Assembly (NCBI GenBank): GCA_022448365.1
Contig: JAKVCS010000003.1
Span: forward strand, 992,001 to 1,056,000
Direction: 5' to 3'
Source of the DNA: Saccharospirillaceae bacterium
GTDB lineage: Bacteria; Pseudomonadota; Gammaproteobacteria; Pseudomonadales; Oceanobacteraceae
Length of the DNA stretch: 64,000 nucleotides
Position 1 is the stretch's first letter. Each line of letters opens with the position of its first letter. This document shows, piece by piece, positions 36,925-44,116 of this stretch. A model generated the notes under the pieces. The model saw nothing but the letters and a program-made list of their open reading frames with translations, searched no databases and was not told the DNA's origin. The translations under genes and the position numbers were made by a program.

Positions 36925-37874
36925 CAGGCCAAACGCTCAGCAACTCGCAACACGGCGCTTCGGGAACGAGCGTTGCGTTTTACTTCTTCCTCAGTTGGCA
37001 TAATGGCTTTGCCAACCCGCTTCATGGTTTTACCCAGCTGGTCATCCGTTAGCGGAATACCCACCGGAACATCCTTACCTTTTTCCTGCGCACGAATAAA
37101 TCGTTTCACCATGCGATCTTCCAGTGAGTGAAAACTGATTACCGCCAGGTGCCCACCAGCAGCGAGCAGATCCACTGATTCATTCAATACATTTTCCAAA
37201 TCACCCAGTTCGTTATTCACGGCAATACGAATCGCCTGGAATGCACGGGTGGCCGGATGCTTATGACGCTCCCAATTCGGGTTGGCTGCCTTTACAATTT
37301 CAGCCAAACGCAAAGTGGTGGTAATCGGCTCTTCCGCCTGCGCTTTTTTCAGCCAATTTGCGATACGCTTGCCATAACGCTCTTCACCGTATTCCTTTAA
37401 TACCCGGGCAATTTCTTTTTCCGGGGTTTGCTCAAGCCACTGGGCTGCACTGAGTCCGGCATCCGGATTCATACGCATATCAAGCGGACCGTCGCGCAAG
37501 AAACTGAAGCCACGCTCAGCATCGTCGAGCTGGGGAGACGACACCCCCAGATCGAGCAAAATCCCGTCTACCTCAGAAATACCTAAGCGCGCTAATTCGG
37601 TTTTCATCTCGGCAAAACTGGACTGCACAATCTGAAAGCGATTGTCTTCCTGCTCTAACTCTTTGCCCGACTGAATCGCCAGAGGATCTTTATCAAACCC
37701 AATCAGGCGACCATTATCGGATAACTTGCTTAATAACAAACGGCTGTGGCCCCCGCGGCCAAAAGTGCCATCCACATACACACCGTCGGGTCTAGTGAGA
37801 CAACCGTCGACCGTTTCTTCCAGCAATACCGTGGTGTGTAAAAAGTGTTCTAAATTTGTGTCTGTCAAACTCAT
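36924..37874 (-). CDS. rsmH: RsmH (MraW), 16S rRNA m4C1402 methyltransferase
   Basis: 316 residues. N4-methylates C1402 of 16S rRNA. Seen: the N-terminal VLLEETVDGCL, SAM motif I VDGTFGRGGHSRLLL, DGILLDLGVSSPQLD, RDGPLDMRMNP, and the C-terminal VISFHSLEDRMVKRFIR. ATG 37874 overlaps the mraZ stop (ATGA), consistent with a mraZ-rsmH-ftsL-ftsI transcript. Confidence 0.98.
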   Translation of the reverse strand: MSLTDTNLEHFLHTTVLLEETVDGCLTRPDGVYVDGTFGRGGHSRLLLSKLSDNGRLIGFDKDPLAIQSGKELEQEDNRFQIVQSSFAEMKTELARLGISEVDGILLDLGVSSPQLDDAERGFSFLRDGPLDMRMNPDAGLSAAQWLEQTPEKEIARVLKEYGEERYGKRIANWLKKAQAEEPITTTLRLAEIVKAANPNWERHKHPATRAFQAIRIAVNNELGDLENVLNESVDLLAAGGHLAVISFHSLEDRMVKRFIRAQEKGKDVPVGIPLTDDQLGKTMKRVGKAIMPTEEEVKRNARSRSAVLRVAERLA

Positions 37875-38326
37875 AGCGACAAGCTCTGTAATTCTTCCGG
37901 CAGCTGATCTGGCTGGCTCACCATATCCAGGTAGTCATCACGACGGCTTTCCCATTGCGCCTTGCTCCAAAGTTCCAGCTTTTTACCCTGACCGACCAGC
38001 ACACTTTCTTTTTCTAAACCGGCGTATTCCCGCAAAGGTTGCGGTAACAGCACTCGTCCACTGCCATCCAGCTCCAAATCTGTTGCATGACCTATCAGCA
38101 GCCGCTGAATACGCCGGGCAACCGGATTAAAGCTGGGTAGCGCCTCAATTTTCTTTTGAATCTCTTCCCACTCATTAATGGGATACACCAACAGACAACG
38201 TTCTTCAGTATCAATGGTGGCTACCAAACGGGCACCACAGAGCTCCGTCAGCGGTTCCCGGTATTTAGTCGGGATCGCCAGACGCCCTTTAGCATCCAGA
38301 TTGATCGTATGTAGCCCCCGAAACAT
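37871..38326 (-). CDS. mraZ: MraZ, transcriptional regulator of the dcw cluster
   Basis: 151 residues, two SpoVT/AbrB-like domains each with the DxxGR signature: LDAKGRLAIPTKYRE (about 10-24) and LDGSGRVLLPQPLREYAGL. Family knowledge: MraZ binds short direct GTGGG-type repeats upstream of its own gene and represses the dcw cluster. Here three GTGG[A/G] repeats at 10-bp period lie just downstream of the predicted -10. ATG 38326; a weak GGGCAG is the only Shine-Dalgarno-like sequence. Confidence 0.97.
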   Translation of the reverse strand: MFRGLHTINLDAKGRLAIPTKYREPLTELCGARLVATIDTEERCLLVYPINEWEEIQKKIEALPSFNPVARRIQRLLIGHATDLELDGSGRVLLPQPLREYAGLEKESVLVGQGKKLELWSKAQWESRRDDYLDMVSQPDQLPEELQSLSL

Positions 38327-38874: not shown

Positions 38875-39687
38875 ATGACCATCGAACAAATCCAGGCTGC
38901 TTCCCTAAAATTACGCGATAACAAGTTGTTTGAACTGTTTGTTGTGTCCGTCATCGTCATCTCAGCGTTGCTGATTGGTGCCAAAACCCATCCAATTCCG
39001 GATACCGTCATGCAGGTGGTGATTTGGCTGGATGTCGGTATCACCTTTATCTTCCTGTTCGAAATCGTTGTGCGCTTTATCGCCGAACCAAACAAGAAAC
39101 GCTTCTTCCACAATGGCTGGAACGTGTTCGATACTCTGGTGGTGGTGGTCAGCCTGGTGCCGATTGAAAACAGCGACATGGCTCTGATTGGCCGGCTGGT
39201 GAGAATATTCCGGGTACTGCGGATGGTATCGATTATCCCTGAATTGCGCACGTTACTGAATTCCCTGTTCCGCGCCTTACCTCAACTGGGATATGTATTG
39301 CTACTGATGTTCATCATTTTTTACATCTATGCCGCCGTTGGAGCGACTTTTTTTGCTCCCATCAATCCGGAGCTGTGGGGCGATATTTCAATATCGCTGC
39401 TGACCCTGTTTCGTGTCATGACCTTTGAAGACTGGACTGACGTGATGTACGAAACCATGGACACATACTCACTGTCGTGGATTTATTATCTCACCTTTAT
39501 TTTCCTTACTGCGTTTGCCTTCCTCAATATGGTGATTGGTATTGTGGTAAATGTGCTGGAAGACGAGCATGCCCGCGAGCGCGCCAAGCAGGATGAAGCA
39601 GAAGGCAAAGCCACTATCGAAGATCTGCAGGCCGAAATTCAGGAACTGAAACAACTGATTATCAACCAGCAGGGAAAGTCTTCATGA
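38875..39687 (+). CDS. Voltage-gated cation channel, bacterial NaV/CaV type
   Basis: 270 residues, one six-helix channel domain of the homotetrameric NaChBac family. Seen: S1-S4 in residues about 17-122, with S4 arginines 107, 110, 113 and 116 at three-residue spacing (GRLVRIFRVLRM); S5 at about 138-160; selectivity filter T183-F-E-D-W-T-D189; S6 at about 203-227; and a C-terminal coiled coil (about 230-265) typical of the tetramerising tail. The usual sodium filter is TLESWS; here Glu185, Asp186 and Asp189 give three acidic filter positions, as in calcium-selective designs, so Ca2+ permeation is plausible but inferred. ATG 38875 has a weak Shine-Dalgarno. It overlaps the next gene (ATGA). 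Confidence 0.92.
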   Translation: MTIEQIQAASLKLRDNKLFELFVVSVIVISALLIGAKTHPIPDTVMQVVIWLDVGITFIFLFEIVVRFIAEPNKKRFFHNGWNVFDTLVVVVSLVPIENSDMALIGRLVRIFRVLRMVSIIPELRTLLNSLFRALPQLGYVLLLMFIIFYIYAAVGATFFAPINPELWGDISISLLTLFRVMTFEDWTDVMYETMDTYSLSWIYYLTFIFLTAFAFLNMVIGIVVNVLEDEHARERAKQDEAEGKATIEDLQAEIQELKQLIINQQGKSS

Positions 39688-40208
39688 AAGCGTTACTCAC
39701 AACCGCCCTGCTGTTCCTAAGCAGCCTGAGCTGGGGCTTCAGTTATACAGTGGAAATCAGCGAACAACAGATTCAACAAAAAATTGATGCGCTGATGCCG
39801 CTGGAGCGTAAGAAGCTGTTTTTCCTGGTGACCTTAAGTGATGCCAAAGTGGACCTGGTCGAAGGTAAAAACGAAATCAGCCTGTTTAGTCAGGTGCGCC
39901 TGGATGCCCCCAATAACATCCGTGCTACCGGCAGAGCCGAAATAGCGGGCACCCTGGTCTACAAAGCTAAAGAAGGTGCGTTTTATCTGAACAATCCGCA
40001 GATCAAACAAATCGAAATTGATCAGTTAGACCCTGGCCTCATGCCGACGATGAAAAAACTGGCACAAAACGCCGTGGCAAAATCTCTGGTAAAGCAGCCG
40101 GTTTATACGCTCAATGACCAAGATCTGAAACAGAAACTGGCGAAATCGATGCTGAAATCGATCAACGTTGAAAACCAGATATTAAAAGCAACGCTGAGTG
40201 CGTTCTGA
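39684..40208 (+). CDS. DUF1439 (YceB-like) exported protein
   Basis: 174 residues. A Sec signal peptide (MKALLTTALLFLSSLSWGFS, cleavage probably near residue 18-20) without the lipobox Cys found in E. coli YceB. The mature part matches DUF1439: VEISEQQIQQKIDALMP, SDAKVDLVEGKNEISLFSQV, LVYKAKEGAFYL, and VKQPVYTLND. The family is thought to adopt a lipid-binding TULIP-like or SMP-like fold, function unknown. The 4-bp ATGA overlap with the channel gene indicates co-translation, an unusual pairing. Confidence 0.85.
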   Translation: MKALLTTALLFLSSLSWGFSYTVEISEQQIQQKIDALMPLERKKLFFLVTLSDAKVDLVEGKNEISLFSQVRLDAPNNIRATGRAEIAGTLVYKAKEGAFYLNNPQIKQIEIDQLDPGLMPTMKKLAQNAVAKSLVKQPVYTLNDQDLKQKLAKSMLKSINVENQILKATLSAF

Positions 40209-42788: not shown

Positions 42789-43295
42789 TTAGCTGCGGTA
42801 CTTTTTCTGCACTCCCTGCAAAAAATTACGCAACACCTGGTCCTGGCATTCGCGATAGTGGCGATGGCCGGGATTACGAAAGAATGCACTCAACTCGGAT
42901 TTCCCCAGTTTAAACCCGGCCAGTGCCAGTAATTTTAGAATATCTTCGGAGCGCAGGTTTAACGCGATTTTCAGCTTCCTCAGAATAATATTATTATTGA
43001 TGCGAGCATGGGCTTTGTTCCAGGGATCAACAGCAGACTTCGTATTCTTAGCCGATTTATCAGCAGCTTCAGGCTCTTCACGCGGACCTCGTTTTTCAAT
43101 AATAAAACCATCGAGAAACGCATTCATGCTATCGTCGTCGCAGCGAATATAACCTTCCAACTCTTCTTTTTTCAGCCATCCGGTTATTTGCTCCTGGCTG
43201 GCTTTACAGTCACCCAAAGAAAAAATTGCCGTCATCTCTGTATCATTCAGATTAAAGCTGTAACGCAAGCGACGCAGAATATCGTTATTAGTCAT
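42789..43295 (-). CDS. DUF1456 (YehS-like) protein
   Basis: 168 residues made of two similar halves, a hallmark of DUF1456: NNDILRRLRYSFNLNDTEM (about 3-21), repeated as NNIILRKLKIALNLRSEDI (about 101-119), each followed by a helical stretch with a LSAFFRNPGHRHY-type ending. The linker is charged (EEPEAADKSAKNTKS). The function is unknown in all species. It starts 11 bp after the upstream 269-residue gene, so the two form an operon. Confidence 0.9.
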   Translation of the reverse strand: MTNNDILRRLRYSFNLNDTEMTAIFSLGDCKASQEQITGWLKKEELEGYIRCDDDSMNAFLDGFIIEKRGPREEPEAADKSAKNTKSAVDPWNKAHARINNNIILRKLKIALNLRSEDILKLLALAGFKLGKSELSAFFRNPGHRHYRECQDQVLRNFLQGVQKKYRS

Positions 43296-43306
43296 AGGCC
43301 CGGGTT

Positions 43307-44116
43307 TTAACGCAACTGTTGCAAGGCTGCCAGTTTATCAGGCTCGGCTTCAATTTGCTTCACCGCATACTTGTAGGGGCCGTGTAAGTGTTTTTTCAGA
43401 TAACGAGTAGCGCTTTTACGATCAATGCTTTTTAGCTGACAAAACAGCGCCAGCACAAAAACACTATCATACTCTGTGAGTGCTGGTTGACGATTGGCCA
43501 TGGCGTTATAACAACTGCCACAGCCACCGCGAATGGTGTAAGCAGAATTAGCGAGTAACACACCAAAGCCCATAAACCCGGCTAACAGCTCACTGGCCTC
43601 CATAAACAGATTCTGACCACCCGGTGGTAATATCCGCCCCTGAATAACCAGATGTTGCGCCAACACATGGGCGTAACTGGCGGCCATGTCTTCCGGCTTC
43701 AACGTTTGTTGAGGATTATAAAAAACCTGTAGCGGTTGTTGTGACTGAATCCGTTCGTTATTCATTTCAACGGGGTTTGAAACGGATAGCGAGTTGCGTT
43801 GAATTTTTTCCAGCCCAGGTTGAGGTGCTGGCGGTATCTGGCACTGAGGCTCCTGCCGCAACTGCTGACTCGATAACAGCTGAAATGGCCAACGATTCAA
43901 ACCGGCATAACGCTGGCTATGTTGAAAAATATTGGCCGCTTTTTCTTCGACACTTGAGACTCTGCCTGGGAAAAAATCGTTGCTTGGCAATACCAGTTGC
44001 GTGCGGTTAAAAAACTCATCCGCATCAAAATGCTGTAATGCCCAGGCAAAGGTATCAAAAACCCAATCAGCTGTTCTCTGATCCACCAGAGGTTTGGACT
44101 TAAAAAAACTCAGCAC
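43307..44116 (-). CDS. Conserved hypothetical protein, 269 residues
   Basis: No characterised family recognised. N-terminal part (about 8-60): ADWVFDTFAWALQHFDADEFF, then LVLPSNDFFPGRV. A Gln/Pro-rich middle (about 85-135) is followed by a C-terminal part with VLAQHLVIQGRILPPGG, FMGFGVLLANSAYTIRGG and CGSCYNAMANRQPALTEYD. The CxxC pair could bind metal or be redox-active. The start GTG 44116 is supported by AAAGGT at good spacing. No signal peptide, so probably cytoplasmic. Co-transcribed with the DUF1456 gene. Confidence 0.75.
   Translation of the reverse strand: MLSFFKSKPLVDQRTADWVFDTFAWALQHFDADEFFNRTQLVLPSNDFFPGRVSSVEEKAANIFQHSQRYAGLNRWPFQLLSSQQLRQEPQCQIPPAPQPGLEKIQRNSLSVSNPVEMNNERIQSQQPLQVFYNPQQTLKPEDMAASYAHVLAQHLVIQGRILPPGGQNLFMEASELLAGFMGFGVLLANSAYTIRGGCGSCYNAMANRQPALTEYDSVFVLALFCQLKSIDRKSATRYLKKHLHGPYKYAVKQIEAEPDKLAALQQLR

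Follow-up and report, generated by a model that had tools for sequence, protein, structure and literature searches.

The AnclNavs, described in 2020, are the bacterial channels that invite the closest comparison here; four were cloned and two, CavMr and NavPp, were measured (Shimomura 2020, PMC7041947). NavPp, from Plesiocystis pacifica, has the filter TLEDWTD and is reported there to prefer Na+ over Ca2+ (PCa/PNa 0.308), with low-affinity Ca2+ block, and to prefer Na+ over K+ or Cs+. According to the same report, the filters of artificial Ca2+ channels gave NavPp no Ca2+ permeability, and Gly at filter position 4 made it divalent-selective (PMC7041947). CavMr, from Meiothermus ruber (filter TLEGWVD), is natively Ca2+-selective, a property dependent on its position-4 Gly: Asp at this position lowers PCa/PNa to 7.7, and the CavMr backbone with the NavPp filter has a ratio of 13.8, being less selective and poorer in K+/Cs+ discrimination (PMC7041947). 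AnclNavs from Teredinibacter turnerae and Halomonas elongata reportedly gave no current, despite NavPp-like filters, the T. turnerae channel being silent in Sf9 cells; Ca2+ selectivity is ascribed to the TLEDWSD mutant of NavAb and the TLEDWAD mutant of NaChBac (PMC7041947).

Phe at filter position 2 is known in some BacNavs and AnclNavs, and the NavAb L176F mutant is reported to have no divalent block (PMC10349818). A 2023 review associates Asp at position 4 with a channel that is either Ca2+-selective or Ca2+-blocked (PMC10120453), and selectivity is no longer held to be predictable from the filter acids alone, NavPp being the example given (PMC8002053). Among other bacterial channels, NavSheP, from Shewanella, has a recorded sodium current (PMC5071848).

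The gene considered here lies in a 64,000-nt stretch of the genome of a marine Saccharospirillaceae bacterium (contig JAKVCS010000003.1, positions 992,001 to 1,056,000; "the window" below). It is an intact, ATG-started ORF with a Pfam Ion_trans match (E 8e-49), and its features are as follows, in window coordinates:

38875..39687, + strand: voltage-gated cation channel gene, 270 aa (ORF, Pfam)
38923..39234, + strand: voltage-sensor domain S1-S4, residues 17-120 (model helices)
39193..39222, + strand: S4 with Arg107, 110, 113, and 116 (sequence)
39238..39351, + strand: S4-S5 linker and S5, residues 122-159 (model)
39367..39426, + strand: pore helix P1, residues 165-184 (model)
39421..39441, + strand: selectivity filter TFEDWTD, residues 183-189 (sequence; pattern match in own genome)
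39442..39465, + strand: P2 region VMYETMDT, residues 190-197; acidic at Glu193 and Asp196, lacking basic residues (alignment, sequence)
39475..39600, + strand: S6 and cytoplasmic extension, residues 201-242 (model)
39616..39678, + strand: C-terminal helix, residues 248-268, probably a coiled coil by its heptad spacing (model, sequence)

The ORF, the Pfam match, and an AlphaFold monomer agree with the original prediction of a six-helix channel with the filter T183-F-E-D-W-T-D189. The monomer, built from 27 sequences and of moderate confidence (mean pLDDT 67.4), has helices that fit S1-S6, the pore helices, and a C-terminal helix at 248-268. In the structure alignment, L217 was left out for an in-frame stop, and four more first-listed loci were also dropped. 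The four regularly spaced S4 arginines that had been noted are present, three residues apart, and the proposed coiled coil in the tail is probable: I248, L251, I255, L258, and L261/I262 place hydrophobic residues at heptad spacing within the modeled helix. The pore mouth is strongly acidic (E185, D186, D189, E193, and D196), with no Lys or Arg between R180 and residue 206, and the protein contains no cysteines. It thus has the hallmarks of the BacNav superfamily: a single six-helix Ion_trans domain, an arginine-bearing S4, and a T-x-E-x-W filter. Two other Ion_trans proteins of the same genome, a 318-aa GYGD channel and a pentapeptide-repeat GYGD protein, were considered as similar channels and set aside, both being potassium-channel-like.

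By its filter, TLESW-like but with additional acids, the window channel is assigned to the known AnclNav kind, and native channels whose filter bears E, D, and D were already known as a kind. It resembles NavPp as a single-domain voltage-gated channel with three acids at the same places, a comparison that extends to the filter only; NavPp, from a myxobacterium, has Leu at position 2, where the window channel has Phe. It shares the acids at positions 3 and 7 with the AnclNav CavMr, but position 4, the glycine that CavMr needs for its Ca2+ selectivity, is Asp186. The fold is that of NavAb, NaChBac, and CavAb, the acids of CavAb having been introduced at positions 4 and 7; the native filters of NavAb and NaChBac, however, are TLESWSM and TLESWAS. 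Fourteen aligned canonical channels have one extra residue between the filter Trp and P2 (TLESWSMG-I in NavAb vs. TFEDWTD-V here), and NavAb-like channels carry an Arg in P2, where the clade of the window channel mostly has Tyr/Glu. The TLESWS-type filter, the longer loop, and the P2 Arg of canonical NavAb-like channels are all lacking in the window channel.

The best single-domain match in the PDB is 4dxw (E 8e-60), which we take to be NavRh. NavRh is also a neighbor of the window channel's clade in the tree described below, but its filter, TLSSWET, is without the acids of TFEDWTD. In T-type calcium channels, the first pore aligns gaplessly with the filter and P2 of the window channel, 9 of 17 residues being identical.

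The link to the cloned AnclNavs can be made through T. turnerae. One of the genomes searched (G295) has an LPMO domain identical at 200 of 200 positions to PDB 6rw7, a T. turnerae LPMO enzyme (PMC6767633), and we therefore take it as T. turnerae. Queried with the window protein, it yields one such channel, 62–63% identical and with the filter TFEDWTD, and a second hit that is a GYGD potassium-type channel. Since this is the only candidate found with that query, the AnclNav cloned in 2020 (YP_003073405) is very probably this orthologue. It belongs to a different family group but has the same filter as the window channel, and in the tree it falls in the same clade.

Among the genomes searched of the window's family, 39 of 44 (own genome included) have a match to the channel; in the order, 206 of 293 have some match, a count that takes in weak hits to other Ion_trans proteins. 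Among named records, the closest relatives go under the names Oleispira, Thalassolituus, and Oceanospirillaceae. The dN/dS of the window channel against three relatives is 0.035, 0.053, and 0.049 (dS was saturated in two further comparisons); the gene is under purifying selection. The frequency of matches in the family and the low dN/dS mean that it is not a chance ORF.

TFEDWTD is the usual filter of the clade. It is found in 29 of the best 30 family loci, the other having one unread residue. A set of 128 channels collected by homology, hand-picked from hit lists and including the window's own, comprises 94 with TFEDWTD (three of which sit in another tree group), one TFXDWTD, six TLEDWTD, seven TFESW-type, 19 canonical TLESW-type, and one TLSSWET. 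These seven-letter filters are projections on the window channel's columns, so that a projected "TLESWSG" is really TLESWSM-G in the aligned rows, and "TFESWTA" really TFESWATA. A scan that gave 80 named loci, biased because TFEDWTD was itself one of two search terms, showed TFEDWTD in 79 and TFESWTS in one, a Vibrio. Searched as DNA across 397 genomes of the phylum, the pattern T[LF]EDWTD turned up in 55, with the reversed pattern found once in the same table; 29 of the 30 loci returned are channels, and the remaining one (L150, a TLEDWTD match) was discarded, having no channel alignment. A full-text search that took in a minority of the subscription literature returned no publication containing TFEDWTD, TFEDW, TFESW, FEDWTD, or FESWTA.

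A tree was built from 75 rows (72 loci plus NavAb, NaChBac, and NavRh), with the filter columns left out; the rows were hand-chosen, all available TFESW-type channels being included, so that proportions among them carry no meaning. The window channel falls in a 50-row clade (support 98/95) next to the NavRh-type TLSSWET channels. A separate nine-row group with TLEDWTD or TFEDWTD filters (100/99) lies elsewhere, and the canonical channels, NavAb and NaChBac among them, are also outside the clade, the 14 canonical rows forming one side of a weakly supported branch (87/45) in a tree that drew a long-branch warning from the program and is without NavPp and CavMr. To our knowledge, no current has been recorded from any channel that can be placed in the window channel's clade.

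Both positions 4 and 7 are Asp in 42 of the clade's 50 rows, eight rows have it at neither (L080, L083, L089, L091, L092, L093, L094, and L196), and none has it at only one. Each position changes about five times on the tree, with four supported independent pairs, always together; a sign test on the joint change gives p 0.125, the pairs being too few for significance. In five of the eight channels that lack both, the loop gains one residue, as in canonical channels. The loss of Asp7 wherever Asp4 is lost (8 of 8 such rows) appears to be a new observation. The clade amounts to a natural experiment, in which E-D-D channels can be set against relatives lacking both aspartates on otherwise similar backbones.

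What such a filter would pass is a separate question. Calcium selectivity had originally been predicted, by analogy to engineered NavAb mutants. The filter is indeed acidic, and likening it to the engineered mutants is fair. Asp189 corresponds to NavAb Met181 only when counted from the filter Thr; in the alignment with the 14 canonical channels it falls on NavAb Gly182. The prediction had also named characterized sodium channels with this filter among close homologs as the finding that would speak against it, and NavPp, one filter residue different and Na+-selective with Ca2+ block, comes close to being one. Since a nearly identical filter passes sodium and is blocked by calcium, the sequence of the window channel does not allow it to be named a calcium channel. 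Nor does the count of acid charges predict selectivity here, since TLEDWTD yields a PCa/PNa of 13.8 when placed in CavMr but 0.31 in its native NavPp. The inference from acid number to ion selectivity is a tempting one for bacterial filters, and is corrected here: the nearest measured filter is that of a Na+ channel with Ca2+ block.

On balance we favor, by a modest degree of belief, a homotetrameric, depolarization-opened pore of the AnclNav kind that carries Na+ and is blocked by Ca2+. Four subunits would assemble one pore, opening on depolarization, with Glu185 of each forming the constriction and Asp186 and Asp189 an outer ring; with Glu193 and Asp196 behind this ring, the strongly negative mouth might be expected to bind Ca2+. 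In seawater the current would be mainly Na+, and Ca2+ would sit in the filter, permeate poorly, and block in part, as in NavPp. The NavPp measurements (PCa/PNa 0.308, Ca2+ block) argue for this, as do the Asp at position 4, where Gly confers divalent selectivity, and the presence in the AnclNav set of the T. turnerae channel, with TFEDWTD and a filter called NavPp-like (PMC7041947); Phe at position 2 alone gave no divalent block in NavAb L176F (PMC10349818). Against it are the ratio of 13.8 given by TLEDWTD in the CavMr backbone and the lack of current from the T. turnerae channel of the same clade (PMC7041947), and Asp at position 4 may also signify Ca2+ selectivity (PMC10120453).

A native Ca2+-selective channel, its E/D/D rings selecting Ca2+ as in engineered CavAb, seems rather unlikely. 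The Ca2+-selective TLEDWSD NavAb and TLEDWAD NaChBac mutants (PMC7041947) are consistent with it, along with the gapless alignment to the first T-type pore and the retention or loss of Asp4 and Asp7 as one unit; but native NavPp, with TLEDWTD, prefers Na+, position 4 is Asp and not the Gly that CavMr needs (PMC7041947), and the loop register is unlike that of NavAb, the parent of CavAb. We would give similarly little credence to a poorly selective pore for Na+, K+, and Ca2+: CavMr with the NavPp filter did become more non-selective (PCa/PNa 13.8), but NavPp itself favors Na+ over both K+ and Cs+ (PMC7041947). That we are dealing with a decaying gene or a non-conducting remnant, as the silence of the T. 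turnerae channel in Sf9 cells might suggest (PMC7041947), is very improbable given the intact ORF, the dN/dS of 0.035–0.053 against three relatives, and the matches in 39 of 44 family genomes.

Among the matches listed in the family and order searches, the resident channel gene of at least three relatives (Marinomonas flavescens, G173, and G004) is cut exactly after the last filter codon, at the equivalent of window positions 39441|39442; the window's own copy is uncut. The left border is GAT|TAT in all three, and the right border runs into GTN-ATG-TAY. The pieces are located as follows:

L260 1475 to L261 11051: cut channel and putative element, Marinomonas flavescens (G282 C10)
L263 2464 and L262 8314: cut channel and putative element, G173
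L264 1997 and L265 649: cut channel and putative element, G004

In M. flavescens both halves are on one contig, about 29.4 kb apart, while in G173 and G004 (the latter assembly 75% complete) they are on different contigs. Beside the M. flavescens N-half are genes for a 380-aa tyrosine recombinase, a 737-aa protein with no Pfam match, and a 694-aa recombinase-like protein; relatives of all three occur in the same order in G173 (32, 26, and 31% identity). G004 has a partial relative of the 380-aa recombinase (34% identity), ended by the contig end, and its 75% complete assembly gave no match to the 694-aa protein. The M. flavescens cargo includes type I restriction-modification genes, a PrrC-like protein, and an OLD-like protein. 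The cut looks like the work of an integrative element with tyrosine recombinases, judging by these genes. What looked like a fourth split channel, in G009, was rejected, since each of its two pieces runs out at or beside a contig end and the codons following the filter are unbroken.

The element appears sparsely in wider searches. Relatives of the 380-aa recombinase (E 1e-10 or better) were found in one of 244 genomes of the order (G173) and in none of 321 genomes of the class, a draw that contained no known positive. The element's patterns were not found in the viral contigs searched, nor the 694-aa recombinase in the plasmids searched. The pattern EDWTDY occurred in four of 390 genomes, in two unrelated proteins and two of the split channels already known.

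All three genomes with a cut gene also carry an intact TFEDWTD channel, with IQY rather than VMY after the filter, and thus with different DNA at the cut site. In M. flavescens it lies between the two halves, in G004 it is flanked by the N-half and the partial recombinase, and in G173 it is on the same contig as the C-half. In a quick tree the IQY channels fall together in a single clade (14 of 15 rows, SH-aLRT 100), whose other named members come from Idiomarina, Alteromonadaceae, Pseudoalteromonas, and Ferrimonas. Nine of the ten named genomes carrying an IQY channel have it as their sole match, and the 694-aa recombinase has no match in those nine, so that IQY channels are not generally tied to the element.

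An exact cut behind the filter codons, accompanied by an intact channel from a different lineage, appears to be new. It seems probable that these codons serve as the attachment site of rare integrative elements, carrying defense genes, that bring with them an intact, cut-proof channel of another lineage. Integration would split the resident channel between the filter and the P2 helix; the incoming channel, with the same filter protein, would replace it, and its altered DNA behind the filter (GAY-ATT-CAA for GAT-GTN-ATG) may shield it from integration in turn. If this attachment-site reading is true, the channel would be hard for these bacteria to dispense with, and element and second channel would tie bacterial ion-channel biology to mobile defense islands. 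The Gamma-Mobile-Trio island, characterized by three marker proteins, was considered for the element; among its neighbors, NCBIfam recognized only a VPA1267-family neighbor. The available text of PMC1464126, PMC12715929, and PMC10734457 tells of no insertion site in a channel gene for it, and no relevant publication on mobile elements in channel genes was among the matches listed.

As to its own surroundings, the window channel lies divergently upstream of mraZ (37871-38326), adjoining rsmH (mraW) of the division cluster. The divergent arrangement recurs in all 20 loci with an mraZ match inside the fetched flanks (three of them second copies of one contig; a channel match was present at 179 loci overall), with match starts 335–1205 bases apart. 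Downstream, a DUF1439 gene (39684-40208) overlaps the channel stop codon by 4 bases. An operon of the two was considered and rejected: in flanks of 1.5–4 kb, some shorter, a DUF1439 match was found at only one of the 179 channel loci (some of them one contig taken twice), the window's own.

Relatives occur in other settings as well. A 39.7 kb IMG/VR contig has a 52% identical channel at its very end (L034 5001-5798), and Vibrio alfacsensis plasmid NZ_CP032095.1 has an unannotated relative at 43237-44021 that aligns in two pieces and is perhaps frameshifted. A relative is also present on each of eight large Pseudoalteromonas replicons recorded as plasmids.
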